The position numbers and the translations under genes are program-made. From positions 1-26,780 of the IMG/VR virus record IMGVR_UViG_3300004457_000258: a stretch of 26,780 nucleotides of DNA; one strand, written 5' to 3'. Positions 1,732 through 22,307 of the stretch are shown in pieces (position 1 is the stretch's first letter; every line of letters begins with the position of its first letter). Below the pieces are notes generated by a model, which did no database searches, was not told the origin of the DNA, and was given only the letters and a program-made list of their open reading frames with translations. The stretch is from a virus.

Positions 1732-1762
1732 TTTTTATTATCTAATTAATTAATATATTTAT

Positions 1763-2328: not shown

Positions 2329-2358
2329 TTGACAGAATGATGTAAGACCCCCTAAAAT
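2329..2358 (+). promoter_or_regulatory. Rightward promoter, probably leaderless
   Basis: TTGACA (2329-2334) and TAAAAT (2353-2358) are separated by 18 bases. The predicted start of transcription (about 2365) falls only a few bases before the ATG at 2368, so the mRNA would be essentially leaderless. One GTGATATAT word overlaps the start codon and could be an operator. Confidence 0.6.
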
Positions 2359-5592: not shown

Positions 5593-5839
5593 GCGGTGCG
5601 AAAGATGTGAGAAACTTTATGATATTCCAAATATCAAGGATTGTTCTAGTCGGCAACTAATAATTGATTTTACCCCCTGCCCCCACTGTGGTTATGTGCA
5701 AGATATTTTATATAAAAAAAATGATAAGTCTGGAAGATGCCTAGATTGTTCAATACCATTTTGCCTAATTGATCATCATTCGAAAGGAAGATGCGAGAGA
5801 TGTTCACGAAGGTATTATCGTGAGCGCGACAAAAAATAG
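5570..5839 (+). CDS. Multi-cysteine zinc-binding protein (89 aa)
   Basis: Ten cysteines and two adjacent histidines are arranged as four CxxC pairs plus extras: C10/C13, C25, C37/C40 (CPHCG), C57/C60, C65 with H69-H70, and C75/C78. Two or three zinc sites are likely. The C-terminus is basic (RCSRRYYRERDKK). The last codons carry a copy of the AGCGCGAC promoter element for the portal gene. It overlaps the preceding zinc miniprotein by 23 bases, so the two may form a functional pair. A nucleic-acid or protein adaptor role is inferred only from the zinc sites. The stop is TAG. Confidence 0.65.
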   Translation: MKIHSVSKRCERCEKLYDIPNIKDCSSRQLIIDFTPCPHCGYVQDILYKKNDKSGRCLDCSIPFCLIDHHSKGRCERCSRRYYRERDKK

Positions 5840-5853
5840 CTATTTGATAGATT
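5823..5853 (+). promoter_or_regulatory. Late-class promoter 1 (portal)
   Basis: AGCGCGAC at 5823-5830 is followed, after 17 bases, by TAGATT at 5848-5853. The portal ATG is at 5861. A start about seven bases after the hexamer would fall at 5860, giving a leaderless portal mRNA. This is one of four sites with identical AGCGCGACA and identical spacing (others at 8235, 15063, 22277). Confidence 0.7.
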
Positions 5854-5860
5854 ATTAACA

Positions 5861-7885
5861 ATGGAAGAAAAACCTGACTATTTTGGAGACAGTAAATATT
5901 TAAACATGAACAAGGAGCAACTTGCTGCCGAAGCTGTTAATACTGCTATTAATCAGATCAACGCTTGTTATGAATTCAAGAAACCACGTCTTGCAAAAAT
6001 AGCAAAGTACTGGGCACTCTATGACGGTAAAACATCTAAAAAACTAAGACAACTATTCAACGTCCCAATCCCTGTGTTCCCTGGGATGATTGATACTTTG
6101 AATGCGCAATATGATACTCCAATCCAGGTAAAATTTAAGGAAGGGGATGCAGCTGACTATTTCAAGATAAATAAGGTCAATGCTGCATTTCAAATGGAGA
6201 TAATGGATTCAAACAATAACAGTAAGTGGGATTCTAAGCTTAGAATGGCCCGCAAACACGCCATAATGACTGGTAGAGCGATTGTTGAGTATCGGGCTAC
6301 ATCTGATCCAGAATACAGTTCAGAACTAAATACAATCAATCTAAAGAACTTTAACTTCCAACCAAAAGGAGGTCTTTACCTTGAAAATCACCTTTTTGCT
6401 GGAGTTGAGGATATTGATAAGACAAAAAGTGAAATAATCGCTGGTGTTAAGAGTGGTATCTATAACAAAGACCAAGCAGAAAAGCTATTTACAACATGCC
6501 TTGATGAAAATTACCTTCCATCTGGATCTCAAGATATGGCAGATAGACTATCTCGATTCAAGCCTATGGGACTGGATGCTGAGAATAATTCTTATGTTGG
6601 AGAAGCTGTCTATAAACTAGCAAATCATATTTTAAATATAAATGGTGTTCGATATTACCTTGTGTTTCACCCATGGTCAAAAACTTGGTTACGATTCGAG
6701 AAATGGAAGGATGTTGATTCTTCTGGACTTTACCCTTGGAAGACTTATGCAACACATGAGGATGATGAGAATTTCCTTTCAAAAGGTTATGCTGACGATC
6801 TTTATTCTGCAGCTGATGCTATTGTCGCAATGTTTAATCAAGAGCTTACAAACCGAGAAAAGCGAAATTTTGGTGCTCGAGCATATGATAAAGATATGTT
6901 TCCAGATGTTCGAAAACTTGATGAGGCCATGCACCGACCGGATGCGCTGGTCCCCGCTGATACAAAAGGAGGAACTCGAAGAATCTCTGAGGGAGTATAT
7001 GAATTTAAAGTGGGTGAGCTTGGCGGAACTGTAAACCTTATTGACTGGATTACTGGATCACTTGGGCGAAATACTGGAGCGACAGACCTATCAATGGGTA
7101 GTACTCAAGAAGTATCAAAGAAAGCATCGGTTACTTTTGCAGAGCAGAAATCAGTCTCAAAGCGTATTGGATGGGGAGCGCAACCATTCCAAGATATGAT
7201 GGCTGATCTTGGTAAAGCATATATCTGGGGACTTAAAGACCATATGCCTTCTAAGATGGCTATTAGGCTCATGGGTGAGGGTGGATGGGACTGGGATGAG
7301 ATTACACGTCTCGATTTAAATACTAAGAAGGATATTGATGTTCTTATTCAATCTACTGATCAACAAGTCCAGGATAGCGAAATAAAAGCTAAGAGACGAA
7401 CTGATGCCCTAACACTTGTACTCAAAAGCCCAAATATTAATGGGCAAAAACGAGATGAGGAGATTCTTCGTTCTGTGGGAGGATATGAGGATTCTGAAAT
7501 TGCCGAATTTCTTGATGTAAAAACATATTCAAATAGAAAAGCTATAGCAAAAGCTTCTGAATCAATCCAATTAATCTTAATGGGCCAAGAACCATTGCTA
7601 TGGTATGGAGCAAATATAGCATTTATACAAAAAATCGTAGACTTTGCATCCGATAAGCGATCAACTCTAAAAGACAAGTTCGAAAAACTAATGAAGTATG
7701 CAATGGATCACAAAGATATAGCAAAACAAAATATAGAAAGGCAAATAATGGAGGATGCAACAACTATGGCAAAGCAACAATTACAAAATCCTTCTGCTCC
7801 AGCTAGTACTAATACATCTGAAAATCCAGGTATGTCTGGAGGGATGAGTCGAGCAATGAGTATGGGCGCAGCAATGTCACAATAA
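5861..7885 (+). CDS. Portal protein
   Basis: The 674-aa product lies directly after the terminase module and before scaffold and capsid genes, and its length fits P22-type portals. The N-terminal third carries helical and mixed segments (KPRLAKIAKYWALYDGKTSK around residues 41-60, then the PIPVFPGMIDTLNAQ region). The ATG-proximal region, the central IPVFPGMIDTL-type wing and a C-terminal helical barrel-like region agree with phage portal proteins. The last ~18 residues are rich in Met, Gly and Ser. It would form the dodecameric DNA channel at one capsid vertex. The assignment rests on order, size and general resemblance, with no catalytic motif. It is driven by late-class promoter 1. Confidence 0.85.
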   Translation: MEEKPDYFGDSKYLNMNKEQLAAEAVNTAINQINACYEFKKPRLAKIAKYWALYDGKTSKKLRQLFNVPIPVFPGMIDTLNAQYDTPIQVKFKEGDAADYFKINKVNAAFQMEIMDSNNNSKWDSKLRMARKHAIMTGRAIVEYRATSDPEYSSELNTINLKNFNFQPKGGLYLENHLFAGVEDIDKTKSEIIAGVKSGIYNKDQAEKLFTTCLDENYLPSGSQDMADRLSRFKPMGLDAENNSYVGEAVYKLANHILNINGVRYYLVFHPWSKTWLRFEKWKDVDSSGLYPWKTYATHEDDENFLSKGYADDLYSAADAIVAMFNQELTNREKRNFGARAYDKDMFPDVRKLDEAMHRPDALVPADTKGGTRRISEGVYEFKVGELGGTVNLIDWITGSLGRNTGATDLSMGSTQEVSKKASVTFAEQKSVSKRIGWGAQPFQDMMADLGKAYIWGLKDHMPSKMAIRLMGEGGWDWDEITRLDLNTKKDIDVLIQSTDQQVQDSEIKAKRRTDALTLVLKSPNINGQKRDEEILRSVGGYEDSEIAEFLDVKTYSNRKAIAKASESIQLILMGQEPLLWYGANIAFIQKIVDFASDKRSTLKDKFEKLMKYAMDHKDIAKQNIERQIMEDATTMAKQQLQNPSAPASTNTSENPGMSGGMSRAMSMGAAMSQ

Positions 7886-7889
7886 TTAT

Positions 7890-8246
7890 ATGGACCAACT
7901 AGAAAAAATAAAACAAATATTCCTAGCCTCAGATGTAGATGATGAAACTCTTGAAGATAATCAATCAAAAATTGATGAATGGCAGAAAACTATCATTGAA
8001 AATGAAAATTTGAAATCCTGGCAAGAACATGATGTTACAAGATTGATAGTCAAACAATGTAAAGATACCTATAAAGATTTATCAATAATGTTGGCAAAGA
8101 ATCGGTCGTTGTCAGACGAAGAGAGAAAATCTTTGTGGGGTAAGCAAGATGCATGTTTATTTATTTTATCTTTAGCTAGTGGAGATCCAGAATCGTCACT
8201 TAAACAAGTTGAAGAAGAAATTAATCACGCGTTGAGCGCGACATAA
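7890..8246 (+). CDS. Helical hypothetical protein following portal (118 aa)
   Basis: The gene starts 4 bases after the portal stop. The product is acidic and predicted all-helical, with the segment SWQEHDVTRLIVKQCKDTYK around residue 43-62. Small helical proteins with a similar EHPVTK-type segment commonly follow portal genes in phages, and their role is undefined. The final codons (AGC GCG ACA) are the start of late-class promoter 2. No cysteine cluster, membrane span or catalytic motif is visible. Confidence 0.65.
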   Translation: MDQLEKIKQIFLASDVDDETLEDNQSKIDEWQKTIIENENLKSWQEHDVTRLIVKQCKDTYKDLSIMLAKNRSLSDEERKSLWGKQDACLFILSLASGDPESSLKQVEEEINHALSAT

Positions 8247-8265
8247 ATTATAAATTAATCATAAT
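8235..8265 (+). promoter_or_regulatory. Late-class promoter 2 (HeH protein, scaffold, capsid)
   Basis: AGCGCGAC at 8235-8242 and CATAAT at 8260-8265 are separated by 17 bases. The next ATG is at 8276, so the transcript would begin about 4 bases upstream. By position it can also feed the scaffold and capsid genes. Confidence 0.7.
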
Positions 8266-8275
8266 ATTAAATATC

Positions 8276-8518
8276 ATGACAAAACCAGAAATAATCGAAA
8301 AATTAATAGCAGCAGAAATTGAATTTGATGATACGCTCTCAAAGAAAGAGCTAGAGGCTTTATTGCCTGAAGATGTTAAGAATTCAGATGAAGAAAAGAC
8401 AGAAGTTACAGTTCTATTTGATAATACATCGAGAGTTTATTCAAAAGAAGTTCATGGAGATAATTTCCTAGACCTTGCAAATGAATTTGCAACAAAAAGA
8501 AAGGGAACGATAGCGTAA
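8276..8518 (+). CDS. Small HeH/SAP-like domain protein (80 aa)
   Basis: Residues 3-30 (beginning KPEIIEKLIAAEIEFDDTLS, then KKELEALL) match the helix-extended loop-helix (HeH/LEM/SAP-like) motif, common in small phage head-region proteins. The C-terminal half (about residues 42-80) is a separate short alpha/beta segment. HeH domains bind nucleic acid or protein partners. It sits in the head module between portal and scaffold, directly after late-class promoter 2 and before a structured gene-free leader. Confidence 0.7.
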   Translation: MTKPEIIEKLIAAEIEFDDTLSKKELEALLPEDVKNSDEEKTEVTVLFDNTSRVYSKEVHGDNFLDLANEFATKRKGTIA

Positions 8519-8523
8519 TTTTA

Positions 8524-8651
8524 CTTGGGCCATCTTCGACCGGATGACCCAAGAATAAAAGACACTAATAGTATCTTTTCCCCAGGCTCGCGGGCATTAG
8601 TGGAGCAAAGTTATAGGACTGGATTCAAAACCTATCTCTCGTGATACGAGA
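8524..8651 (+). ncRNA. Structured leader with successive hairpins before scaffold gene
   Basis: The 152-base gap before the scaffold ATG can fold into several stems. CTTGGG-C-CATC pairs with GATG-A-CCCAAG (8524-8553). AAAAGACAC pairs with GTATCTTTT (8557-8579, one mismatch). GCTC (8586-8589) can pair with GAGC (8603-8606), ATAGG (8613-8617) with CCTAT (8631-8635), and TCTCGT with ACGAGA (8637-8651, perfect). No coding frame or clear terminator T-tract is seen. It could be a cis-acting leader, processing site or attenuator for scaffold and capsid expression. Folding was judged by eye. Confidence 0.45.
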
Positions 8652-8670
8652 CTTTAAACAAATCAAATGT

Positions 8671-9564
8671 ATGAATGAAGATGAATATAAAAAGGAATTA
8701 TTAGCTAATGGCGTACAAGTTCCTGAAATAACAGAGGAGCCAGCTAAGGAACCAGAGAAAGAACCTGTAAAGGAACCGATCAAGGAACCTGAGAAAACTC
8801 CCGAGGAGCCTAAAATTGAGCCGAAGGAACCTGTAAAGGAGCTAGAGGACAATAAGGAACCGAAAAAGCGATCTATCTACGATGAATACAAGGATAAAAA
8901 ATCCGAGTTGAAAGAAGAGAAAGAAGCGCGTCTTCAAGCAGAAAAAGAGCGCGATGAATTAAAAGAAGCTTTAGCAAAAGCTAAGACTCCAGAAGAAAAA
9001 AAAGAAGCATTAGATGATCTTGATGAGTTCGCGAAATCAAGCAATCTCGATCCGGCAGGATTAAAGAAAATGCGAGATATTTTTCTAAAGGATCTAAAGG
9101 TACCTGGATTGAGCGATGAAGATCGTAAAATCCTAGAGGATGCTAAAAACTTCTCAAACCAAAACAAAGAAGTTGTTGAAAAACAACAATTTGAAAAGGA
9201 ATTCACTGCGACTATTCCAACCTTGAAGGAATTTTTCCCGACAGCTTCGCAAGAAGAATTAAACACTGTGAAAGTTGAGCTAGATAAAATTGCTCACTCG
9301 GAAGGGTGGAATGATAAGTCACTCGATTACATAGCATTTAAACACAAAGATGTACTTAAAGAGCTTGTATCTCCAAAAAAACGAGGACTCGAGTCTAAGG
9401 GTAATAAGCAAATAGATGAGACTGTTCCAACAGACTTTAATCCAAATGCCGATATATCAAAGATGTCTGAGGCTGAATTTACAACTTGGAATACAAAATA
9501 TCAAAGTATGATGAAATCTGAGGGTCTTGCTGAAGATTCTCAAGGGAGAAAGTTACTAATTTAA
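8671..9564 (+). CDS. Scaffolding protein (probable)
   Basis: The chosen start (ATG 8671) gives 297 residues, close to P22 scaffold length. Residues about 21-66 are an acidic, Pro-rich tract of repeated K-E-P units. A strongly predicted coiled coil follows (about residues 70-115), and a helical C-terminal half has a mildly basic end. High charge, low hydrophobicity, coiled coil and position immediately before the capsid gene all fit an internal scaffold that guides capsid assembly and is then removed. A GTG at 8641 would add 10 residues but lies inside the last leader hairpin, so the ATG is preferred. Confidence 0.8.
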   Translation: MNEDEYKKELLANGVQVPEITEEPAKEPEKEPVKEPIKEPEKTPEEPKIEPKEPVKELEDNKEPKKRSIYDEYKDKKSELKEEKEARLQAEKERDELKEALAKAKTPEEKKEALDDLDEFAKSSNLDPAGLKKMRDIFLKDLKVPGLSDEDRKILEDAKNFSNQNKEVVEKQQFEKEFTATIPTLKEFFPTASQEELNTVKVELDKIAHSEGWNDKSLDYIAFKHKDVLKELVSPKKRGLESKGNKQIDETVPTDFNPNADISKMSEAEFTTWNTKYQSMMKSEGLAEDSQGRKLLI

Positions 9565-9580
9565 ACATTAAAACATTATT

Positions 9581-10861
9581 ATGGCAGCAAACCCAAACAC
9601 AATGACCTTTAAAACGGTCTTTAGTGCGGAATACCAAATGTCTCACTTCAAGGAGCCTGTATATCAGATCCTTGCTGATACAAGACTAGAGTCTGATCTC
9701 GTTAAAGGTCAAACTATTTCACGGTCATATGCTTCAGATGTTCAAGTAAATGACATGGGTGGTGACGGAAGTTACTCAACTCAAGCAATTACTGATACTG
9801 CTGAGACATTGACAGTTAGTTATGAAAAAGAAGCTTCAATTTACATCAAGAAACTTGATGAATTGCAAGCTCACCTACCTCTTAAACAGAAGTATGGTAA
9901 GAAACTAGCAAATGCACTTATTAATCAAATTGATGGTGATGTTTTGCTAAAAATGTACCAAGGAGCAGGGACTACTCTTGATGATGGTTCTTTTGGAGGT
10001 ACATCTGGTAACGGTTTTGTAGTTACAGCTTCAAACGTAGCAACAGTATTTACTACTGCTATGCAAAAGCTAAGACTAAAGAACGTAGTTTACAATAAGA
10101 GATTCCAGGGTGGAGTTAAATTGGAGGTTCCAGAAGGAATGCCAGTTGCAACTATCTCTCCTGAAATACTTTCTTACATCGAGCTTTTCCTCGGAGGTAA
10201 AGATACTCTTCTTGGAGATCAAGTATCTCGAAATGGATACTCTGGTTATTTCATGGGATTTGAGTGTTTCGTTTCAAACTCAATCGCATGGACAGCAGAG
10301 CTTGCGTTCGCAACTATTCCTACAGCAGCAGATACAATAACTATCAACGGTGTTGTATTGACAGCTACAGCGAACGGAGGTGCGACAGCGGCTGGAGACT
10401 TCTCAATTTCTACTACTAACGACTTAGCAGCAGCAAACCTTGTGCAACTAATCAATGGTACTGGAACTCCTGGAGCTTCAAACTATATTGAACTTTCAGC
10501 AGCAAACCGAAGACTTTTGAAGAATATTACAGCTTCTTATAGTGCATCTACAGACACACTAACTCTTACATCTTCTGGATGGGGAACAGTGGTTGTTTCT
10601 GAAACACTTACACCAGCTGGAGATATTTGGACAACTGCAAAACAACAACTACACGTTCTATTCTCACTTTCAAAATCATGTTCTCTTGTGGTTCAAAAGA
10701 CCCCTTCAATGGAAGAGAACTTTGTTTCTGGAAAGATTGGTAGAGACTATATTTGTTGGACAGTTTATGGTATTAAGGTCTTCGTTGATCAAGCTCCACA
10801 AATTGTACAGCTTGCGGTTGCATCTTCATCATTTACTTCAGCTTCAACAACAGTAAGATAA
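9581..10861 (+). CDS. Major capsid protein with inserted domain
   Basis: The 426-aa product follows the scaffold and matches P22 coat in length (about 430). Its N-terminal portion contains the strand-rich MGGDGSYSTQAITDTAETL region (around residue 59-77) and a spine helix-like segment (LKQKYGKKLANALINQIDGD, around residues 101-120), as in HK97-fold coats. Residues about 246-345 form a separate beta-rich insertion (TITINGVVLTATANGG, then AAANLVQLINGTG). This type occurs as a mobile structural domain in phage proteins. Core sequence resumes after it (SMEENFVSGKIGRDYICWTV). It has no Shine-Dalgarno and probably relies on an upstream late promoter. Confidence 0.9.
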   Translation: MAANPNTMTFKTVFSAEYQMSHFKEPVYQILADTRLESDLVKGQTISRSYASDVQVNDMGGDGSYSTQAITDTAETLTVSYEKEASIYIKKLDELQAHLPLKQKYGKKLANALINQIDGDVLLKMYQGAGTTLDDGSFGGTSGNGFVVTASNVATVFTTAMQKLRLKNVVYNKRFQGGVKLEVPEGMPVATISPEILSYIELFLGGKDTLLGDQVSRNGYSGYFMGFECFVSNSIAWTAELAFATIPTAADTITINGVVLTATANGGATAAGDFSISTTNDLAAANLVQLINGTGTPGASNYIELSAANRRLLKNITASYSASTDTLTLTSSGWGTVVVSETLTPAGDIWTTAKQQLHVLFSLSKSCSLVVQKTPSMEENFVSGKIGRDYICWTVYGIKVFVDQAPQIVQLAVASSSFTSASTTVR

Positions 10862-10881
10862 TAACTAATTAAAACAACTAT

Positions 10882-11190
10882 ATGAACAACTTCGCAAAAA
10901 ATGCAGGGCTAGTCATCGCGGGAGTTATAGTTGGTCTATTATTCTTCGCGGTTTCAACAGGGGGAGGTAAATTGGGAGGAGTGTATCAACAAACTGATAG
11001 ATTTTCTCAAGCAGATTTAACTATCAGTGGTGGAACACTAACAGTAGCAACTTCTAATACAGCGACTTCGACAATTACAGGTGGATGTTTTCAATTCTAT
11101 GCAACTTCAACAGCTACGGCTTTAAAGTTTCAAGCATCGACAACTCCAGGCATAATGTACTCGCAGTACGGAACTTGTCCTAACCTTTAG
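10882..11190 (+). CDS. Small membrane-anchored or exported Thr/Ser-rich protein (102 aa)
   Basis: The N-terminus (MNNFAKNAGLVIAGVIVGLL) has two Lys/Asn-rich turns and then a hydrophobic span (about residues 8-25), so it is a signal anchor or Sec signal. The rest is Thr/Ser-rich with ATST-type words and two cysteines (in GGCFQF and YGTCPN) that could pair outside the cell. It lies between the capsid and decoration-type genes. A secreted or membrane-anchored protein inside the head module is unusual. No family name is known to me. It ends with TAG just before a strong hairpin. Confidence 0.65.
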   Translation: MNNFAKNAGLVIAGVIVGLLFFAVSTGGGKLGGVYQQTDRFSQADLTISGGTLTVATSNTATSTITGGCFQFYATSTATALKFQASTTPGIMYSQYGTCPNL

Positions 11191-11231
11191 CCGATTCCCT
11201 CAGTCCTCTTAGGAGGGCTGGGATGAGTCGG
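11191..11231 (+). terminator. Intergenic hairpin, weak terminator or mRNA stabiliser
   Basis: CTCAGTCCTC (11200-11209) pairs with GAGGGCTGGG around a four-base loop, giving ten pairs including G-U pairs. An outer CCGA/TCGG clamp lies at 11191-11194 and 11228-11231. The downstream bases (TTAAAAATTAAT) lack a clean T-tract, so strong rho-independent termination is doubtful. A 3' end stabiliser or processing site is equally likely. Confidence 0.5.
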
Positions 11232-11260
11232 TTAAAAATTAATAATTAATTATTTAATAA

Positions 11261-11635
11261 ATGACACCAAAAATATTTAAAGTCTTAGATGGAGTAACGG
11301 CAACAACAACTTCAGAAGTAATTGATATTGAGAATGCTAAAAAGGTTACGCTTGAATTTACTCGAGCCGATCATAGTGCTGGATCATCCGCTTTTGCGGT
11401 CACAGTATCTGTGGATGGTATAAATTATGTAACATTCAATAAACTTATTGACAACGTAACAAATACTAACGCGCAAACAAAGACTAGAGTAGCGAGTGCG
11501 ACCCTTTCAAGTAACACTTCGAAACTATATGCTCTTGATTTAGAGAATGATTCATTCAGATTCATGAAAGTAACAGTAACAGAGACAACAGACGGAACAC
11601 ATACATGTAAAGCATCAGTTCTATATAATTATTAA
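11261..11635 (+). CDS. Decoration-type beta-sandwich head protein (124 aa)
   Basis: The product is a compact beta-rich domain with no membrane span. The order of strands (VDGINYVTFNKLIDNVTN at residues 50-67, then ending RFMKVTVTETTDGTHT) resembles small beta-sandwich proteins encoded after capsid genes that sit on the capsid surface or act as head-fibre bases. I infer a decoration or stabilising role from fold type and position only. It is preceded by the hairpin and by a 30-base AT-rich leader without Shine-Dalgarno. It is followed 5 bases later by the next gene. Confidence 0.6.
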   Translation: MTPKIFKVLDGVTATTTSEVIDIENAKKVTLEFTRADHSAGSSAFAVTVSVDGINYVTFNKLIDNVTNTNAQTKTRVASATLSSNTSKLYALDLENDSFRFMKVTVTETTDGTHTCKASVLYNY

Positions 11636-11640
11636 ACAAA

Positions 11641-12447
11641 ATGATATTAAGGCCACAGAAAAACTTTACTTTGGTCAGACAAATCGCTAACCATACCGAT
11701 ACTGCTACTTATTATGTTCGTGCGGTCATACGAGATGCCTATACTGACGAGATTTTAGATACGCTTAATCTTGATGATAAAGGTGGTCAGAGGTTTTCAA
11801 AAAATTGGCGAGTGGTTGCTGATCCGTCCGGTCTTGGTCGGGAGATTTCTATTGTAACATCTGTGTACACTGATAGTGGGTATACTACAAAAAGTGAAAA
11901 TTATGGTGATGAGGAAAATTCACATCTTATTGAAGATAAGGAAGTAAATGGTCGAAGTGGCGGTGGTGGAATAGATGCGCGAACACTTCGAAGAATAATC
12001 AAAGAGGAAATTGAACTAGCTAGGCCAGAACCTATAGAAATACCGGAATTCCCAGAACCAAAAGAGTATGAGATGAGATGGGATGATATTTTAAAGGCTA
12101 TAAGTGAATTGCCAAAACCACAATCGGAAACTAATATTAATCCTATTCTTGATGGGTTAAAAAATCTAGCAAATCTTATAGAACAAAAAGAGGTTACACC
12201 ACCTACTGATTTATCACCTGTACTTGACCATTTAAAAGATTCTGATGATAACCAAGAATTGAATAAAGATGAGGTCGTGACTATGTTAAATACATTAGCA
12301 AATATTTTAGTAAAGCAAATTCCAAATGAAATCAAAAAAATACTAAAAGATGCAACATTTAATATGGTTTCAATGAAAGCAGAGATTGATTTGGCAGAAA
12401 AGAAAATTCCTGTAAAAGAAATAGACATTAGTAAAATAACACTATAA
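11641..12447 (+). CDS. Virion-associated hypothetical protein (268 aa)
   Basis: An N-terminal beta domain (about residues 1-80) carries the YYVRAVIRDAYTDEILDTLN element (residues 24-43). It is joined by a Gly-rich hinge (SGGGGIDAR) to a Pro/Glu-rich acidic region and a helical C-terminal half that may form a coiled coil. Proteins of this layout lie between capsid and neck genes and may connect head proteins. No specific family is recognised. It starts 5 bases after the preceding gene and ends 2 bases before the neck gene. Confidence 0.6.
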   Translation: MILRPQKNFTLVRQIANHTDTATYYVRAVIRDAYTDEILDTLNLDDKGGQRFSKNWRVVADPSGLGREISIVTSVYTDSGYTTKSENYGDEENSHLIEDKEVNGRSGGGGIDARTLRRIIKEEIELARPEPIEIPEFPEPKEYEMRWDDILKAISELPKPQSETNINPILDGLKNLANLIEQKEVTPPTDLSPVLDHLKDSDDNQELNKDEVVTMLNTLANILVKQIPNEIKKILKDATFNMVSMKAEIDLAEKKIPVKEIDISKITL

Positions 12448-12449
12448 TT

Positions 12450-13163: not shown

Positions 13164-13171
13164 TAAATAAA

Positions 13172-15064
13172 ATGTTTCCAGATTTCACAATATCTCAATT
13201 TTTTGGAACTAATACAGCAGTAAAAGACATAAAAACTCTTAAGCCTGGTGTTTCTCCAGATGCTAAAAATTGGATTACTTCACGAGAGAAAGATTCTATA
13301 TCACTAAGACGTGGATATGCTCGCAAAGGTCTTACAGAAGTCACTGGAGTTGGTAAGGTAACTGGAATAGGTAAAGGTATTAGATATGATACTACTGAAG
13401 TTCTTTGGTATTCTTATGGTCAAAAAGTAAAATATTACGATACAATTACTGATGATAATATTGAGGTTGGGACAGATTTATTAGGTATTAAGGCAGATGG
13501 TGAAGATGTTTGGATGCAAGCATACCAGGGCCTTGCAGGGTCTTTTATGTATATTGGTTCTCCAAATAGTAGTGTTTACAAAATACCAGTTGCTAACCCA
13601 GGGAATGCTGTTGATCAACTCGTGTCCAACTATCGTTGGGGAGTATTCCATATAGGTCAAAATAGAAGCTTTGCAGGGCAGAGAAATGGTACTGTAGCGG
13701 GTAATAGAGACAAGACAGGACTTTACTTATCATACATCGATAAAGATCAGTTATCTGATTTTACTCAGGTTACAGGTGAATCAATTGGAACAGGAAATGG
13801 TGCTACAGTGACATTTACTGGAACTTTAGCGGTTGTTGGATCTGGCAAAACTTTAATGTATATAAGTATCACAGATACTGTGGAGACATTCACAGATGAT
13901 AGAAATGGAAATCTTATCGGTAGTCTTGGTGGTACAGGAACTATAAACTATTCAACTGGAGCTTATAGTGTAACTTTCAATACCGCACCTGCTGGGGCTC
14001 AGGCAATAACAGGGTCTTACTACCACGAAACGTCTACATCGGCAGGAATACTTGATTATTCAGGTGGTGCAAACGGTCAAGGAAAATCATTCAGACAAGA
14101 TGATGGTGGAGGAAACTTGATGGCAATTTGGAATATCAATAATATCGAATATTGTATGCACCTTTTAAAGACATGGCAATTTACTGCAACCCTTGATGAT
14201 ACAACAAGTACAAACTTGCCTTATCGAAATATTGGTATCCCGTATAATCGATCAGCATATCAAACCGATAAAGGTATTATATTAGCTGACTTGTCAAGAC
14301 CAGCGGACCCAAAATTACGAAGACTACAAGTGTTACAAGGTACAAATATTCAAACTATTGAACCTTTACCTATTTCTGATGCTTTGGATTTATCTATTTA
14401 TGGCTTCGATTATTGTATAGCTTACCGATGGGGTGACTATGAAATATTCTGTGTTCAAGAAAAGATAAATGAGGTTGCAAATACATTCAATTCAATAATG
14501 TGGATTCACAATGTTGTTGCTGAAACTTGGGATAAGCTTGACTATTATGCAAGTTGTTTAGTTGAGTACAATGGTACTCTGGTTGCGGGGGATTCTATTT
14601 CAAATAATATATACACTCTATTTTCAGGTTTTGATGATGATGGACAAATTATAGATAACTACTGGTTATCAAGCGATCTTGATTTAGGTAGCGATCATTT
14701 AAAAAATTGTCGTAGAATGGTTATGGATGGGCTAATACAACCGGACCAACAACTTCAAGTTAGTCTTGCTTTTGATGGTGGAGCATTTTCTTTAAAATAT
14801 ACAATTGACGGTAGAGGAGCTTATGTTGATAGTGGAATAAATACTTATATTGGTGGTACTACAATCGGATCTAAGGTAATTGGAGGTGGAGGCGCTGAAA
14901 CTGCACATCCTTATGAATTGGATTTTCCAATAAATAGCGATAGATTCGTGAATGTCCAAATAAAGATTGAGGCAATAGGTGTTGGATTCGTTTCAGTAAA
15001 TAATTTTACATTTAAGGATATAAGAGATAAAGGACGGAAGAATATACCAGTAAGAATAGTGTAG
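13172..15064 (+). CDS. Tail hub / stabilisation protein, P22 gp10-like
   Basis: The 630-aa product starts MFPDFTISQFFGTNTAVKDI and then KPGVSPDAKNWI and RRGYARKG. This N-terminus is typical of P22 gp10-like tail hub proteins and related short-tail proteins with a beta-propeller. Residues about 206-285 look like an inserted beta-sandwich (TGNGATVTFTGTL up to AITGSYYH). The C-terminus returns to beta-rich sequence (WLSSDLDLGSDHLKNCRR). It would close the neck and hold the fibres. The TAG stop overlaps late-class promoter 3. Confidence 0.75.
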   Translation: MFPDFTISQFFGTNTAVKDIKTLKPGVSPDAKNWITSREKDSISLRRGYARKGLTEVTGVGKVTGIGKGIRYDTTEVLWYSYGQKVKYYDTITDDNIEVGTDLLGIKADGEDVWMQAYQGLAGSFMYIGSPNSSVYKIPVANPGNAVDQLVSNYRWGVFHIGQNRSFAGQRNGTVAGNRDKTGLYLSYIDKDQLSDFTQVTGESIGTGNGATVTFTGTLAVVGSGKTLMYISITDTVETFTDDRNGNLIGSLGGTGTINYSTGAYSVTFNTAPAGAQAITGSYYHETSTSAGILDYSGGANGQGKSFRQDDGGGNLMAIWNINNIEYCMHLLKTWQFTATLDDTTSTNLPYRNIGIPYNRSAYQTDKGIILADLSRPADPKLRRLQVLQGTNIQTIEPLPISDALDLSIYGFDYCIAYRWGDYEIFCVQEKINEVANTFNSIMWIHNVVAETWDKLDYYASCLVEYNGTLVAGDSISNNIYTLFSGFDDDGQIIDNYWLSSDLDLGSDHLKNCRRMVMDGLIQPDQQLQVSLAFDGGAFSLKYTIDGRGAYVDSGINTYIGGTTIGSKVIGGGGAETAHPYELDFPINSDRFVNVQIKIEAIGVGFVSVNNFTFKDIRDKGRKNIPVRIV

Positions 15065-15093
15065 CGCGACAAAATATTAATAATTAATATAAT
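15063..15093 (+). promoter_or_regulatory. Late-class promoter 3 (fibre 1 and ejection proteins)
   Basis: AGCGCGAC at 15063-15070 is followed, after 17 bases, by a perfect TATAAT at 15088-15093. The next ATG is at 15105, giving a leader of about 5 bases. The first element covers the TAG stop of the hub gene. This is the best -10 of the four sites. Confidence 0.75.
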
Positions 15094-15104
15094 AATTCAT
15101 AATC

Positions 15105-16352
15105 ATGCAATACCTATTTACCAAAATCATTGCGACAATCTTAGCACCATTTCTTTTTATTGGAGCAGTACTCAACCCAGTTTCAATTATCGAGCAACCT
15201 ACTCAATCCGTAAACCTTGGAGCAGCACTCCCAGGAGCAACTGCGGTATTTGAGACATCACTAGCATCTCCAATTACTTCGACTGCTACATCAATGACTT
15301 TGAGTGCGAATGCAGTCCGAGGTGGAGGTTCAATATCAGGATATAACTGTTTGACTGTAGATGAGGGAAAGGCAGAGGCAGAAACCCTTTGCGGTACAGT
15401 ATCTGGGACTTCAGTAACAGGTATATCTAGGGGTATTAGTCAATCAACGGGCACAACCACTGTGGCTATTCTTAAATTTGCACATAGACGTGGTGCGAAC
15501 GTAAAAATCACTGACTTTCCAATAATCCAAATTCTAAAAGCTCAAAATAACGGAGAGGATACTTTTGAAAATCCTATTAGATATGCTTCAACTGTCAGTA
15601 CTTCAACTCTCGCTTTAAATACAAATAATATCGCTAGTGTAGGATATGTAACATCCGCAGCATTAAATGCTGGGAATGTTTTGACAGCTACTGAAACTTC
15701 TGGAGGATTTGTGGAACTTGCGACAGGTACAGAAGCAGCAAACGGAACTTCAAGTGGTACAGTTGGTAGACTAGCATTACCAGCAAGTATCGCATCATCT
15801 ACATACAATTCAACCGGAGCAAATCAAGTAGTGGTGACTAATGGAAGTAATAAGATAGATAATAACTTTATTGCTACTTCAACACTATTTGCAAATACAA
15901 ATTTGCCATCTACAGTAACATTGGCCACTTCTACTTCATTTACTACAGGTATTCCATTAATGAATATTGGTAAAAATAGTCAAGTATTTTCATCAACTGG
16001 AACAACAACATTTTCTGTTCCAAGTGGTGTGACTAAATTATCCGTGACTGTTCAGGCTGGAGGAGGAGGAGGGGGTGCTGATCCAGGTAATACTTCCAAC
16101 CCATCAGGAGGAGGAGGAGGAGCAGGTGGATTTTCTATGGAAAATGTAGATGTAACTGGGACATCCACAATACAATTATATGTAGGTGCTGCTGGAGAAT
16201 GGTCTACTTTTGGTACAAATGGAAGTTATTTATATGCTACAGCTGGTAGTAATGGTGCTAATGGTAGTTCTGGAGGAGCTGGTGGTGCTGGAGGATCTGG
16301 ATTTGCTTCTGGAGGAACAGGTGCACAAGGAATTGTAATAGTAAGATGGTAA
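15105..16352 (+). CDS. Secreted fibre-like protein with Gly-rich tip
   Basis: The 415-aa product has an N-terminal hydrophobic export segment (MQYLFTKIIATILAPFLFIG). A beta-sheet stalk/baseplate-type domain follows (about residues 45-140, with GYNCLTVDEGKAE, RGIS and HRRGANVKITDFP), then a Ser/Thr-rich shaft. From about residue 300 a glycine-rich polyglycine-helix-type domain starts with FSVPSGVTKLSVTVQAGG and ends GAQGIVIVRW. This end is common in phage receptor-binding and CPR surface proteins. It would contact the host surface. The signal peptide is unusual for a virion protein. Confidence 0.8.
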   Translation: MQYLFTKIIATILAPFLFIGAVLNPVSIIEQPTQSVNLGAALPGATAVFETSLASPITSTATSMTLSANAVRGGGSISGYNCLTVDEGKAEAETLCGTVSGTSVTGISRGISQSTGTTTVAILKFAHRRGANVKITDFPIIQILKAQNNGEDTFENPIRYASTVSTSTLALNTNNIASVGYVTSAALNAGNVLTATETSGGFVELATGTEAANGTSSGTVGRLALPASIASSTYNSTGANQVVVTNGSNKIDNNFIATSTLFANTNLPSTVTLATSTSFTTGIPLMNIGKNSQVFSSTGTTTFSVPSGVTKLSVTVQAGGGGGGADPGNTSNPSGGGGGAGGFSMENVDVTGTSTIQLYVGAAGEWSTFGTNGSYLYATAGSNGANGSSGGAGGAGGSGFASGGTGAQGIVIVRW

Positions 16353-16360
16353 AATAATAT

Positions 16361-17938: not shown

Positions 17939-17939
17939 A

Positions 17940-20390
17940 ATGGCAGAGACACTATTAGAAAAAGCTCAAAGACTCGGAATGAAACCAGCGGGAGCACCTG
18001 TTACTCAATCTGTGTTGCCTACCGCTCCTCAAGAAACTTTGCTACAAAAAGCACAGAGACTTGGGGTAAAGCCGGCTAATCAGTCATTCTTTACAAAAAC
18101 TGGACCATCATTCCCCGCGAGCGAGGGCGGTGCTAATACAATCTTGCCAAACGTAGCAAAAACAATTGGAAACATTCCATCATCAGCGCGTGATTTTACT
18201 CGGTCAGTTATTGCACCAGTGAATCCTTTTGATACTGAGAATTCCCAAAATATTGGTGCAAATATATCTAAAGGTGCTAGTAATATTATTGATATATTTA
18301 AGACAGCTGGATTTACCGGAGGCCTAAAAGCTATTGCTCAAGGTGTAGGAGATACTGTAATGAAAGGGGCAGAAGCTGTCGGAGGTGCTATATATAATCC
18401 TCTGGAGAAAAATGTTATTGCGACAGATAGTGTAACTGGTGGTATAACAAAAACCGCTGGAGATATTGTAGAAGGTGTTGCAAAAACAGGTATTGAGAAT
18501 CCTCTGCTTATTCCATCTATGATATATGGAGGACCAAAAGTAGCAGGAGCAAAGACGACTGATGTTATAGCAGAAACAGGGCAAATATTTACTCGAGGAG
18601 CCGACACAAGTCTTACAAATATTGTACCAAAAGTAAAAACTGTAGTTTCAGATACTGTCAAGACACTTACCCAAAAAAGTGAGGCAAATATTGAAAAGAC
18701 TATTTTAAATAAATTTGAAAAAGGTGTAAAACCTCTAATCCCGGCAAAAACAACCCCAAACCAACTCTCAAATTATCGTGAGGATGTTATTTCTGCTGTA
18801 AAGACAATCAAAGAAAACCAGCCAAATCTAAAATTTTTTGATGAAGCTGGTGGATTGATAGAGGGTCAAACACCTAGATCACTGCAAGAACTAGCAGATT
18901 CTGTGGAACAGACTAAGAAATCTGTATTTGCAAAATATGATGCACTAGCAAAAGAGGCTGGTGATGCTGGTGTAAAAGTTGATATGATACCTATTGCATC
19001 CGAACTAGATACTGTAATAAATAACAAGGCACTTGCTATCACGAATCCTAAGGCAATTAAATATGCTGAGGAACTAAAACAAAGACTTACTGATGCTGGA
19101 TCACTTGAGGCTTTGACTTCACAGGAGGTTATTCAAAATTACAATAAATCACTTGAGGCTTTCTATAGAAATCCTAGTTACGATACAGCAAGCCAGGCCG
19201 CTATTGATGCGATGGTAGTGAACAATATGCGAAAGGCCTTGGATGAAGGGATTACTGGTCTTACTGGTACTCAGTATGGAGCATTAAAAAGGCAATATGG
19301 GTCACTCAAAGCTATTGAAAAAGATGTAATAAAAGCAACCCTTCGTGATGCGCGAAAAAATAATAAAGGCTTGATTGACTTTACTGATATATTCTCTGGA
19401 GGACAATTAGCGAGCGGTATTTTAACATTAAATCCTCAAGCGATTATCCAAGGAGGTACTCAGAAAGCTATTGCTGAGTTCTATAAATACCTTAATAATC
19501 CCAACCGAGCGATTGAGAAGATGTTCAAAGCTGTGGATACTCTACCTTATAAGAACCAGACTCCGTACAATAGTTTGTTACGGACCGCTGCTCCTACCCA
19601 AAGTAAAAATAATATAATTCCTAATACTGTCATACCCAAGATACTACCAGAGAAACCTACGCAAGTCAATATAGCACCAATAAAAAAAGTCCCAGGCGAA
19701 ATCCTACCAACTAATCCAGCTCCTGGAGTATTAAGAAAAACTGTAGATTTTGAGAAGTTAAAAGAAGTTGCTAAAACTAATAGAATTGATTATTCAAAGA
19801 TTGAATCTGAGTTAAATAGCAAAATAGCGCAAGCCCCAAAAGCAAAAGAGTATATAGATTCTGAAATTGATAAGATTGTATCTGGTAATCCAGATCTAGT
19901 AACCGCTAAGGCTCCGGTAAAATCATTCGATAGATCTATTGAAAAAACTATTTTAGAAGATGATGGAAAGGTAGAAAATCTCAAAGACCTAGCAAGAAAT
20001 ACAATTGTGCCAAAGACAGTGAAATCAAGTAATGAAGTCATTGCAAAAATGGATGCAAGACCAGATATATATAAAAAGAAAGTACAAACTGCAGATAAAT
20101 TCATGGGTTATGAAGGTGTAATCTATAATATAAAAACTCCATCCGGACTCATTGCTGAAACACAGATAGTGTCACCTAAGATGACTTTTGGTAAAAATGA
20201 ACCAGAATTTGCTAAACGTATATTGGGAGAAGATTTGTATAATCAAATCCAAAAGGAAACTGGACTTGAAGGAGGGCTTGGACACAAAATATATGAGGAG
20301 TATAGATCACTTTCTTTTAAAGATAAGCTTGGTAAAAAAGGTAAAAACCTTGTGGATAAGTCACTTGCGTATTATGGTAAATTAAGGTAA
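17940..20390 (+). CDS. Large virion protein with C-terminal RelA/SpoT-like domain
   Basis: The 816-aa product has a duplicated 15-residue motif at its N-terminus (ETLLEKAQRLGMKPA at residues 3-17 and a near copy at 32-46). A Gly/Ala-rich region (about 105-190) may insert in membranes, and a helical middle (about 275-545) and a Pro-rich linker (to ~625) follow. The end resembles RelA/SpoT nucleotidyltransferase-like domains found in phage polyvalent proteins: KDLARNTIV (682-690), GYEG (723-726), AETQIVSP (739-746) and GHKIYEEYR (781-789). Catalytic competence is doubtful. It probably enters the cell with phage DNA. Confidence 0.65.
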   Translation: MAETLLEKAQRLGMKPAGAPVTQSVLPTAPQETLLQKAQRLGVKPANQSFFTKTGPSFPASEGGANTILPNVAKTIGNIPSSARDFTRSVIAPVNPFDTENSQNIGANISKGASNIIDIFKTAGFTGGLKAIAQGVGDTVMKGAEAVGGAIYNPLEKNVIATDSVTGGITKTAGDIVEGVAKTGIENPLLIPSMIYGGPKVAGAKTTDVIAETGQIFTRGADTSLTNIVPKVKTVVSDTVKTLTQKSEANIEKTILNKFEKGVKPLIPAKTTPNQLSNYREDVISAVKTIKENQPNLKFFDEAGGLIEGQTPRSLQELADSVEQTKKSVFAKYDALAKEAGDAGVKVDMIPIASELDTVINNKALAITNPKAIKYAEELKQRLTDAGSLEALTSQEVIQNYNKSLEAFYRNPSYDTASQAAIDAMVVNNMRKALDEGITGLTGTQYGALKRQYGSLKAIEKDVIKATLRDARKNNKGLIDFTDIFSGGQLASGILTLNPQAIIQGGTQKAIAEFYKYLNNPNRAIEKMFKAVDTLPYKNQTPYNSLLRTAAPTQSKNNIIPNTVIPKILPEKPTQVNIAPIKKVPGEILPTNPAPGVLRKTVDFEKLKEVAKTNRIDYSKIESELNSKIAQAPKAKEYIDSEIDKIVSGNPDLVTAKAPVKSFDRSIEKTILEDDGKVENLKDLARNTIVPKTVKSSNEVIAKMDARPDIYKKKVQTADKFMGYEGVIYNIKTPSGLIAETQIVSPKMTFGKNEPEFAKRILGEDLYNQIQKETGLEGGLGHKIYEEYRSLSFKDKLGKKGKNLVDKSLAYYGKLR

Positions 20391-20400
20391 TGTAGAGAAC

Positions 20401-20580
20401 ATGGAATACTATATATCAGATTTTCACGATAAAGTTGTAAGAGTAGACATCGAAAACGAGGTTGCTTTTGCTAAAGGTAAAGGTGAAAATGAATCTCGCA
20501 TAGGTAATGATACTAAGATTGTTACAGATGCTATCATAGCAAACGATCATATCACTAAGGAGGAATACGAAAGTTATTAA
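20401..20580 (+). CDS. Small acidic hypothetical protein (59 aa)
   Basis: The frame runs ATG at 20401 to TAA at 20578-20580, ten bases after the large ejection-type gene. The product begins MEYYISDFHDKVVRVDIENE and ends DHITKEEYESY. It is acidic and mixed alpha/beta. An AGGAGG sequence lies inside its last codons (20559-20564), but no start codon follows it at a useful distance. The end overlaps the AACTTGCGTATAA box of the RNA promoter. The function is unknown. Confidence 0.55.
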   Translation: MEYYISDFHDKVVRVDIENEVAFAKGKGENESRIGNDTKIVTDAIIANDHITKEEYESY

Positions 20581-20581
20581 C

Positions 20582-20610
20582 TTGCGTATAAATCAATAGT
20601 ATGATATAGT
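20582..20610 (+). promoter_or_regulatory. Promoter of the structured RNA
   Basis: TTGCGT (20582-20587) and TATAGT (20605-20610) are 17 bases apart, predicting a start near 20617. TTGCGT is part of the repeated AACTTGCGTATAA box (20579-20591). In the other two copies TATAAT within the box acts as the -10. Here the box seems shifted to the -35 position, or the TATAAA at 20587-20592 is itself the -10. Confidence 0.5.
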
Positions 20611-20614
20611 CAGA

Positions 20615-20716
20615 TTGAGACGGACAAGGCTTTTGGCAGTAATGCCAATAGTGGGTATCCAATCCCAGTGGGAAGCGAGTGGTCTCAGAAAAAACATCCG
20701 AAAGGGTGTTTTTTTT
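20615..20716 (+). ncRNA. Candidate stand-alone structured small RNA
   Basis: About 100 bases lie between a promoter and a strong terminator and have no good coding frame. TGAGAC (20616-20621) pairs with GTCTCA (20682-20687) to close the molecule. Inside, TTGGCA and TGCCAA (20633-20648) form a perfect stem with a GTAA tetraloop. CCC (20664-20666) can pair with either the GGG before it (20653-20655) or the one after it (20670-20672), giving two mutually exclusive stems. I cannot match it to tRNA or a riboswitch class that I know. It may be a regulatory RNA. The folding was done by eye. Confidence 0.6.
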
Positions 20717-20720
20717 ATTT
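20689..20720 (+). terminator. Rho-independent terminator of the small RNA
   Basis: AACATCC (20693-20699) pairs with GGGTGTT (20704-20710) around a GAAA loop and is followed by a run of six T (20711-20716), then ATTT. An A-tract precedes the stem, so it could also terminate leftward transcripts. Confidence 0.85.
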
Positions 20721-20743
20721 TAGCCTTATTTTATAAGGCTAAA
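20719..20743. terminator. Second, bidirectional-looking hairpin
   Basis: TTTAGCCTTA (20719-20728) pairs perfectly over ten bases with TAAGGCTAAA (20734-20743) around a five-base loop. It directly follows the first terminator and separates it from the next promoter. Its own downstream T content is low. Confidence 0.55.
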
Positions 20744-20773
20744 GTTATCCACATCTTTTTATGCAATTATTAC

Positions 20774-20801
20774 TTGCATTTATTTTTAACTTGCGTATAA
20801 T
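20774..20801 (+). promoter_or_regulatory. Accessory-gene promoter with AACTTGCGTATAA box
   Basis: TTGCAT (20774-20779) and TATAAT (20796-20801) are 16 bases apart. AACTTGCGTATAATATAAAT (20788-20807) equals the minus-strand promoter box at 1757-1776 over 20 bases. The predicted start is near 20808, about 50 bases before the 58-aa gene. Confidence 0.75.
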
Positions 20802-20858
20802 ATAAATGTAGGGGAAAGGTCATCCACTACGCTTTAGATAATTTAAAAAGATAATAAA

Positions 20859-21035
20859 ATGAAAGAACTATTTGAAAAATTTATGAACAAAAAGGGTTAT
20901 GCGTTTCTCGGAGGATTGAAGGTTGAAGTCACGATCATTAACATCAAGGAGGCCTGGGGAAAGCAAAGATTTCTCATCACTCCGGTTGCAGGTGAGGGCG
21001 AGGTTTGGGTCGAGGCAGTGAGCGGAATACATTAA
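20859..21035 (+). CDS. Small hypothetical protein (58 aa)
   Basis: The frame runs ATG at 20859 to TAA at 21033-21035. The product has a short N-terminal helix (MKELFEKFMNKKG) followed by beta strands (LKVEVTIINIKEAWGKQRF, then ITPVAGEGEVWVEAVSG), a compact OB- or SH3-like strand pattern. It has higher GC than the flanking DNA. It is the first gene behind the accessory promoter and is 19 bases before the 187-aa gene. The family is not recognised. Confidence 0.65.
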   Translation: MKELFEKFMNKKGYAFLGGLKVEVTIINIKEAWGKQRFLITPVAGEGEVWVEAVSGIH

Positions 21036-21054
21036 TCATTAATTTAAAAACATT

Positions 21055-21618
21055 ATGCAAAAACTAACAAGAGAATTTTATATCAAACCAGGGAGCATGC
21101 AGAAAGTTATCTCAATGACAGGTACAGACCTTTACATGACGACATTACAAGAGATTAAGCATCCTTATGTCGCTATGGGATTTAGTGGCAAGAAAGCAAA
21201 GTATGACTTCTACTATCATTTCCAGACTATCGAACAGAGACATGAATTCATTACTAAGTGGGAGAATCGGTTGAAAGCCATTGCAAAGTCAAAGCAAGAA
21301 CGAAAGGAAAAGAGACTTGCACCATCAACATTGAAAGAAGGTGCCATACTATATTCAAGTTGGGGATACGAACAGACAAACATTGACTTCTATCAAGTGA
21401 CAAAGGTTATCGGCTCACGCTCTGTGGAGATTAGAGAGCTTGCTCAAGAGAGAACACCGACAGCTTGGGAGCAGGGTGAGACAATGCCAAAGCCGGGAGT
21501 ATTCATTGGAGAGCCTATGCGAAAGCTCGTTAGAGACCAAAATACAATAAATATCAACAGTTACGCGAGCGCTTGGATGTGGGAAGGTAAACCAAAACAT
21601 TTTACAAGTTACGCTTAA
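21055..21618 (+). CDS. Conserved phage/plasmid hypothetical protein (187 aa)
   Basis: An N-terminal domain (about residues 1-70) has the YDFYYHFQTIEQRHEFI segment. A Lys/Arg-rich linker (about 71-90) joins it to a C-terminal domain with YSSWGYEQTNIDFYQVTKV (residues 99-117), then FIGEPMRKLV and ASAWMWEGKPKHFTSYA. From memory the SWGYEQTN...FYQV and end WDGKP elements recur in many phage and plasmid proteins of unknown function. No enzyme assignment is safe. Its position in an accessory cassette with an early-type promoter suggests a host-takeover or DNA-related role. Confidence 0.7.
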   Translation: MQKLTREFYIKPGSMQKVISMTGTDLYMTTLQEIKHPYVAMGFSGKKAKYDFYYHFQTIEQRHEFITKWENRLKAIAKSKQERKEKRLAPSTLKEGAILYSSWGYEQTNIDFYQVTKVIGSRSVEIRELAQERTPTAWEQGETMPKPGVFIGEPMRKLVRDQNTININSYASAWMWEGKPKHFTSYA

Positions 21619-21630
21619 TATAAAATAATT

Positions 21631-21771
21631 ATGACATACGAAAAAGCATGCGAAATCAGCGACTATCTACTAAAAACAAATCAAGGTTTTTGTTTCTTAC
21701 AGTCTACAGGTGAAATAGTAACCAAAGAGCAATGCGAGAATATTATTAATGACTTTAACACTATAAAATAA
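21631..21771 (+). CDS. Small hypothetical protein (46 aa)
   Basis: The frame runs ATG at 21631 to TAA at 21769-21771. The product MTYEKACEISDYLLKTNQGF then CFLQSTGEIVTKEQCENI contains three cysteines and a helix-strand-helix pattern. It is 12 bases after the 187-aa gene, preceded by an A/T-rich leader without Shine-Dalgarno, as for its neighbours. It is probably in the same transcript. The function is unknown. Confidence 0.5.
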   Translation: MTYEKACEISDYLLKTNQGFCFLQSTGEIVTKEQCENIINDFNTIK

Positions 21772-21772
21772 T

Positions 21773-21838
21773 ATGAATAGATTAAAAACATGGAAAGCAC
21801 AAGGACAATACAAAAACGCTAGGACTACAAGGCAATAA
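21773..21838 (+). CDS. Possible 21-aa basic micropeptide
   Basis: ATG at 21773 begins one base after the preceding stop and the frame ends at TAA 21836-21838. The peptide (MNRLKTWKAQGQYKNARTTR plus Gln) is very basic. Only tight spacing supports it. It may be chance. Confidence 0.25.
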   Translation: MNRLKTWKAQGQYKNARTTRQ

Positions 21839-21851
21839 GAAAGGCGTAAGA

Positions 21852-21911
21852 ATGATTATGACGGACAAAGGCACAATTTTAGAACCACTTTATAAAACTA
21901 AGAAAAAATAA
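21852..21911 (+). CDS. Possible 19-aa micropeptide
   Basis: ATG at 21852 leads to MIMTDKGTILEPLYKTKKK and TAA at 21909-21911, two bases before the next gene's ATG. As with the preceding micropeptide, packing is the only evidence. Confidence 0.25.
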   Translation: MIMTDKGTILEPLYKTKKK

Positions 21912-21913
21912 TT

Positions 21914-22087
21914 ATGAACGAATCATTCACAATGAAAGATGGTCGAGAGGTCAAATTTTATTCAGCATTATCATATAATGGTATGAATATTAGACTAGAA
22001 GATAAATTAGGCCAGGCAGATCTGAAGCAATTTAGAAAGGAAATTTCTTCAGAAAGAGATGTTGTATCAATAATAAATGGAAGATAA
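21914..22087 (+). CDS. Small hypothetical protein (57 aa)
   Basis: The frame runs ATG at 21914 to TAA at 22085-22087 and shares its last base with the ATG of the HTH gene. The product (MNESFTMKDGREVKFYSALS, then a charged helix DLKQFRKEISSERD) is mixed alpha/beta. Translational coupling to a Cro-like regulator suggests that the pair is produced together, but the function is not recognised. Confidence 0.55.
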   Translation: MNESFTMKDGREVKFYSALSYNGMNIRLEDKLGQADLKQFRKEISSERDVVSIINGR

Positions 22088-22278
22088 TGAAAACATTCTA
22101 CAAAGAACTTAAAAAACAAGGTAAAGACGTAAAATGGCTGGCCACCCAGCTCGGAGTGTCTCACCAAACTGTGTATCATTGGAAGTTGGGCAAGACAAAG
22201 CCAAAGCTATCCCACATAAGAAAAATATCGGTGATCCTAAGGATTGAGATGGAAACTCTTTTTTCAGATCATTATTAG
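22087..22278 (+). CDS. Cro/XRE-family helix-turn-helix regulator (63 aa)
   Basis: The product is a minimal HTH domain: helix WLATQLGV (residues 17-24), turn, recognition helix SHQTVYHWKLG (residues 25-35) and the following KPKLSHIRKISVIL helix. This is the canonical XRE/Cro pattern (QLGVS..TVYHWKLGKTKP). At 63 aa it is about the size of lambda Cro, with no sensor domain. A weak GGAAG lies 5 bases before its ATG. Its TAG stop is inside late-class promoter 4, so the product is well placed to act on phage promoters. Its target is not shown by the sequence. Confidence 0.85.
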   Translation: MKTFYKELKKQGKDVKWLATQLGVSHQTVYHWKLGKTKPKLSHIRKISVILRIEMETLFSDHY

Positions 22279-22307
22279 CGCGACAAAAAACTAAAAAATA
22301 GTATTCT
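22277..22307 (+). promoter_or_regulatory. Late-class promoter 4 (fibre 2)
   Basis: AGCGCGAC at 22277-22284 is followed, after 17 bases, by TATTCT at 22302-22307. The fibre ATG is at 22318, so the transcript leader would be about 4 bases. Confidence 0.7.

Follow-up and report, generated by a model that had tools for sequence, protein, structure and literature searches.

Four copies of a nonamer, AGCGCGACA, and their counterparts in related phages are well supported as promoters of one class, in which the -35 region is non-canonical. The copies lie in a contig of 26,780 bases from IMG/VR (IMGVR_UViG_3300004457_000258), the whole of which is called the window here. In the reading that we favour, to which we assign a probability of about 0.7, the sites would be late promoters served by a sigma70-type host polymerase: the -10 element is kept, and p89, a predicted zinc-binding protein of 89 amino acids (aa), would bind a phage-specific box at the -35 position and recruit the polymerase. 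A sequence-only reading had already described the four sites as a new late promoter class. The non-canonical -35 region, the near-leaderless arrangement and the location before virion genes are strongly supported by the relatives; the term "late" is deduced from gene content.

A phage-specific box in place of the -35 element

PHROGs recognised a terminase, a major head protein and a tail-fibre gene in the window. The portal gene had no match among 50,697 phage records, and therefore the phage belongs to an uncultured clade. Searches with TerL, portal and head proteins retrieved about 80 IMG/VR contigs, most of them fragments, with protein identities of roughly 30-83%. In the GTDB genomes no relative was found, neither with a TerL profile nor with a 311-aa fibre protein.

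All four exact copies of AGCGCGACA lie on the plus strand, which is the coding strand (Table 1), and the ATG follows 38, 41, 42 and 41 nucleotides (nt) after the motif start, within the range of 38-42 that had been stated. Each hexamer at +25 from the motif start is -10-like, with between 6/6 (TATAAT) and 4/6 matches to the consensus; the interval between box and hexamer is 16 nt in all four copies and 17 nt in most relatives. At the place of a canonical TTGACA the window copies read GCGACA, which matches in 4/6 positions. A dinucleotide model predicts about 0.04 copies of AGCGCGACA on both strands, in agreement with the earlier estimate of well under one; for GCGCGACA alone the expectation is 0.11. 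The reading frames also differ as described: the motif encodes ERD inside the 89-aa gene and SAT at the end of the 118-aa gene, and it straddles the TAG stops at 15062-15064 and 22276-22278.

The sequence-only reading had proposed a motif search among relatives. The exact arrangement AGCGCGACA-N16-TATAAT was found in 10 scattered contigs across IMG/VR and in none of the relatives, and therefore the word does not mark phage promoters in general. The nonamer as originally written is this phage's variant only, and the family consensus is about AA-Y-G-N-N-A-C-A-A. A variant box is present in about 36 related uncultured phages at orthologous places, namely before portal, before the 80-aa HeH-type gene and before fibres 1 and 2. 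In general terms the box reads N1N2N3N4-AC[A/G]A and is followed after 17 (or 16) nt by TTTGnTANNNT and usually after a further 6-7 nt by ATG. Among the closer relatives the words are CGCCACA, CGCCACG, CGCTACG, CGTTACA, CGTAACA, CGTGACA, CGAGACA, CACCACA, TGCGACA, TGCTACA, TGTCACA, TTCCACA and others.

For the spacing analysis, each phage's own box was taken and every occurrence of that box was examined. A sigma70-type -10 element, TANNNT at 16/17 nt, followed 65 of 79 gene-proximal boxes, compared with 13 of 226 boxes elsewhere (Fisher 5e-39). When the portal sites, which had helped to define the boxes, were excluded, it followed 35 of 48 gene-proximal boxes. The spacing profile peaked at 17 nt (55 sites) and 16 nt (10 sites), and no other spacing was comparably enriched. 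In the sequence logo, TTTGn precedes the -10 element, which corresponds to an extended -10, and a single asymmetric box occupies the -35 position; the 10 nt upstream of it show no second arm. ATG lies 6-7 nt past the -10 element in 38 of the 65 sites, and the usual start point would therefore be on or next to the A of the ATG. Shine-Dalgarno motifs precede about 1 in 39 genes of the window and are at or below background in most relatives. Together, start points at the ATG and the scarcity of Shine-Dalgarno motifs suggest that the late transcripts of these phages are probably leaderless.

Uniformity of the box within each phage

The boxes of one phage were picked blind to the other sites of the same phage. 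Copies within a phage were 90% identical at N1-N4, compared with 10% between phages (permutation p ~2e-4). This agreement within and difference between phages points to a trans-acting reader with a phage-specific preference, which would be the natural explanation.

In a subclade (L159/L160/L180; noted for L182, L183 and L180), the box before the 80-aa gene has apparently been lost, and L159 and L160 keep the portal and fibre 1 boxes.

The candidate reader p89

The p89 gene directly precedes the first late promoter, and its 3' end overlaps box copy 1. The protein has four cysteine pairs in CxxC zinc motifs (10/13, 37/40, 57/60 and 75/78). Searches of Pfam, NCBIfam, PHROGs and PDB gave no significant hit for it, and no homologue turned up among phage records. 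A sigma domain match (region 2 or 4), as expected of a phage sigma factor, was not found, Pfam and PHROGs scans yielded no MotA match, and no Ogr/Delta model was among the Pfam/NCBIfam matches listed for 26 p89 members (E up to 0.5). In an AlphaFold2 (AF2) model with a predicted local distance difference test score of 89, a helix (76-88) begins inside C75-E-R-C78. A Foldseek search of this model against PDB gave nothing significant (best E 1.0), with weak repeated matches to ribosomal proteins.

A different binder had originally been suggested, the 63-aa helix-turn-helix (HTH) protein encoded at 22087-22278. It has no homologue in any relative carrying the promoters and was rejected as reader of the box.

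A second small cysteine-bearing protein adjoins p89. This protein, p62 (62 aa, 5404-5592, plus strand), has no family match and is nearly as conserved as p89, being found in 17 contigs by clustering and in 31 by search.

Covariation of p89 with the box

Covariation was quantified in 33 phages for all alignment columns of 11 conserved proteins, about 1850 columns. Inferring contacts from protein-DNA covariation has a precedent in Prot-DNA-Korr (PMC5045206). Residue 76 of p89 is K, H or N in 17/17 phages with N4=C and in none with N4=A, R or K stands at residue 80 in 5/5 phages with N4=G, and residue 70 is H, Q or W exclusively with N2=G. These preferences appear chemically sensible: K/H/N would face a lower-strand G at N4 and R/K an upper-strand G, and small or uncharged residues go with N4=A.

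In the tree-free test, E11, R80 and E76 were three of the top five columns for N4. When co-changes on branches were scored, H70 ranked 1/1848 for N2, a result that includes L159, in which the fibre and portal boxes differ, and R80 ranked 3 for N4. A tree-aware test of dependent versus independent evolution over all columns placed p89 positions 76, 79 and 80 at ranks 2, 3 and 5 for N4=C, position 76 at rank 1 for N4=A, and positions 70 and 79 at ranks 1 and 2 for N2=G. With a sliding-window score for N2-N4, p89 69-80 was first of 2968 windows. For the latter two tests, the p89 codons shared with the portal box (roughly residue 84 onwards) were excluded. The neighbouring p62 gave little N4 signal in the tree-free tests.

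Two close pairs change in step: the window has CGCGACA with E76/R80 and G001 has CGCCACA with K76/M80, and L070 has CGCCACA with K76 and L022 has CGTAACA with T76. Out of sample, one new phage (L187/L181) was available. It carries CGCTACA at three sites; its H70 agrees with the expectation for N2=G, and its A76/I80 is allowed, but was not predicted, for N4=T. Taken together, the covariation argues strongly that p89 reads the box.

Several observations weigh against this reading. Some phages have mixed boxes (L159 CACC/TGCC, L160 CGCC/TGCC, L150 CGCA/CGCT, L087 CTCC/TTCC). With N4=G (five phages) p89 does not come out on top, and columns of p118, p62 and terL lead; for N4=C the terL column K127 outranks every p89 column. 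In the tree-free window test, portal windows score nearly as high as p89, and the narrow lead of p89 means that relatedness was not fully removed. K76 also occurs with N4=T (G009, L083, L011) and N4=G (L025), and L025 and G007 have the same box and differ at residue 76. The residue groupings were set per column after the data had been seen, with the same procedure for every column. No significant structural or sequence match points to DNA binding by p89, and sequence alone does not tell an activator from a repressor.

Proposed mechanism and alternatives

According to the favoured reading, a sigma70-type factor of the host RNA polymerase would read the -10 element, which is often extended, and the phage-specific box YGNNACAA would stand in for the -35 element. 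The variable bases N2-N4 may be contacted by H70 and by the start of the C-terminal helix of p89 (E76, S79, R80). Synthesis of p89 would come first, under a normal TTGACA promoter; the site TTGACA-N18-TAAAAT (2329-2358) may head the operon concerned, which would end with terL, p62 and p89. Bound p89 would then bring the host polymerase to the late promoters, the first of which would begin in the 3' end of p89's own gene, and the head and fibre genes would be switched on. Transcription would start at or very near the ATG, and the resulting leaderless mRNAs would fit the absence of Shine-Dalgarno motifs in this phage family. DNA binding and activation by p89, the use of the host polymerase and the timing are what we infer from these patterns; activation is preferred over repression because the late sites lack a good -35 element.

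It is unlikely that sigma region 4 reads the box directly, either in a host sigma factor that prefers a non-TTGACA word or in a phage sigma factor encoded outside the contigs, with differences between boxes reflecting different hosts. The box is located exactly at the -35 position, 17 nt from the -10 element, its invariant AC(A) equals the end of TTGACA, and variants such as CGTGACA are near-consensus. However, N2-N4 follow p89 residues rather than overall relatedness, phages with very similar virion genes have different boxes (L160/L093; window/G001), and the same window holds the TTGACA-N18-TAAAAT site.

We regard it as similarly improbable that another phage protein, absent from most contigs, reads the box and that the p89 signal reflects shared descent and adjacency to the portal box. 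This would be compatible with the fragmentary state of most contigs and with the comparable scores of some terL, portal, p118 and p62 columns. Yet p89, with 4% of the columns, holds 6 of the 12 top-three places over four tree-aware tests, five of them at residues 70-80, the equally adjacent p62 is unremarkable for N4=C, N4=A and N2=G, and boxes at a distance of 2-10 kb follow p89 as well.

Very unlikely, in our estimation, is a p89 that reads the box but represses or times the late promoters by occluding the -35 region. Binding there would block sigma region 4, and covariation is blind to the sign of regulation. On the other hand, unaided transcription would be weak at sites without a good TTGACA, the -10 element is often extended, as it is at the activator-dependent T4 middle promoters (PMC6755090), and a repressor made just ahead of the virion genes would be less economical.

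A recurrent sequence without regulatory function, e.g. through coding constraint at gene ends, can practically be dismissed: in many phages the portal box does encode the conserved RHK/RDK at the C-terminus of p89, but the other copies are in different frames, over stops or intergenic, with fixed spacing to -10 element and ATG in about 36 genomes, and the spacing statistics (Fisher 5e-39) contradict it.

Comparison with known systems

The window promoters resemble the middle promoters of phage T4, at which a phage-specific box replaces the -35 element and the sigma70 -10 element remains, frequently in extended form; MotA, a small protein of the phage, reads the box and the host polymerase is used (sigma appropriation; PMC6755090), as we propose for p89. 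However, MotA has two domains, binds DNA with a "double wing" domain and acts together with AsiA, whereas p89 is a predicted double zinc protein without a match among the families searched, and T4 middle promoters drive replication genes, whereas the window promoters precede virion genes. Ogr of P2 and Delta of P4 are small zinc-finger proteins of phage origin and activate virion operons via the host polymerase, a role that p89 may share. Their site is different: in phiRSY1 it is a dyad, TGTTGT-N13-ACAACA, centred -50 to -90 from the start codon, without a sigma70 promoter (PMC5694545), whereas the window box is single, at -35, and combined with a sigma70-type -10 element.

In the P-box of nuclear receptors, a treble-clef zinc finger, specificity resides in the residue that directly follows the first of two zinc cysteines and in the residue two places beyond the second (C-E-G-C-K-G), and the middle NN of AGNNCA is discriminated (PMC3908500). 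E76 and R80 of p89 in C75-E-R-C78-S-R occupy, relative to the cysteines, the places of P-box positions 1 and 3, and the counterpart of the discriminated bases would be the NN of YGNNACA. This is a positional analogy only: nuclear receptors have no detectable homology to p89, which is from a prokaryotic virus and has no dyad site. A tentative extension, to which we give somewhat less than even odds, is that p89 is the founding member of a new phage transcription factor family, whose nuclear receptor-like P-box recognises two of the variable bases in the -35 region. Phages would repeatedly rewrite all late promoters and the reader, each with a private code, perhaps preventing cross-activation in a shared host.

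The related genomes hold more than 12 naturally diverged versions of one proposed protein-DNA contact, most with several target copies. They form a natural catalogue of protein-DNA target coevolution, in which the box of each virus has changed in all copies, apparently in step with p89. With this material it can be tested directly how a regulator and the full set of its sites co-change without loss of function, and which residues in the zinc fold of p89 determine specificity. It may also open a way into late transcription in uncultured phages that lack a known host and, if binding is confirmed, provide small orthogonal promoter/activator pairs for synthetic biology.

Coordinates and further observations

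Table 1. Promoter elements, downstream genes and the candidate reader in the window
Feature	Position	Strand	Remarks
Candidate host-type promoter TTGACA-N18-TAAAAT	2329..2358	+	near-leaderless; 11/12 matches, best in first 20 kb
p89, 89-aa double zinc-binding protein (predicted)	5570..5839	+	proposed box reader; H70, E76, S79, R80 covary with N2/N4
-35-region box copy 1, AGCGCGACA	5823..5831	+	3' end of p89 gene, before portal; orthologous box in ~30 relatives
-10 element TAGATT, portal promoter	5848..5853	+	TANNNT at 16/17 nt conserved in relatives
Promoter 1 genes: portal, then 118-aa gene	5861..7885	+	portal label from the sequence-only reading; no library match
-35-region box copy 2, AGCGCGACA	8235..8243	+	before 80-aa (HeH-type) gene
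-10 element CATAAT, promoter 2	8260..8265	+	
Promoter 2 genes: 80-aa protein, scaffold-like 307-aa protein, major head protein	8276..10861	+	head protein: phrog_267
-35-region box copy 3, AGCGCGACA	15063..15071	+	overlaps stop of 630-aa gene, before fibre 1
-10 element TATAAT, promoter 3	15088..15093	+	
Promoter 3 gene: fibre 1	15105..16352	+	phrog_863 tail fiber assembly
-35-region box copy 4, AGCGCGACA	22277..22285	+	overlaps stop of 63-aa HTH gene, before fibre 2
-10 element TATTCT, promoter 4	22302..22307	+	
Promoter 4 gene: fibre 2, 866 aa	22318..24918	+	

Host-type promoters are also present in G006, a more distant relative of 46,554 bases, in which five CTTGACT-N17-TANNNT sites precede genes. 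In the intergenic region 11190-11260 of the window, a stem-loop-like sequence, cagtcctcttaggagggctggg, precedes the gene at 11261, and similar inverted-repeat-like sequences precede its orthologue in G001, L080 and L075. The window also contains a second promoter-like class with TATAAT: an exact 23-mer, TTTAACTTGCGTATAATATAAAT, occurs twice, at 1757-1779 (minus strand) and 20785-20807 (plus strand), where no copy is expected, and the two copies precede genes that are read away from them, a Gam-like gene and the gene at 20859.

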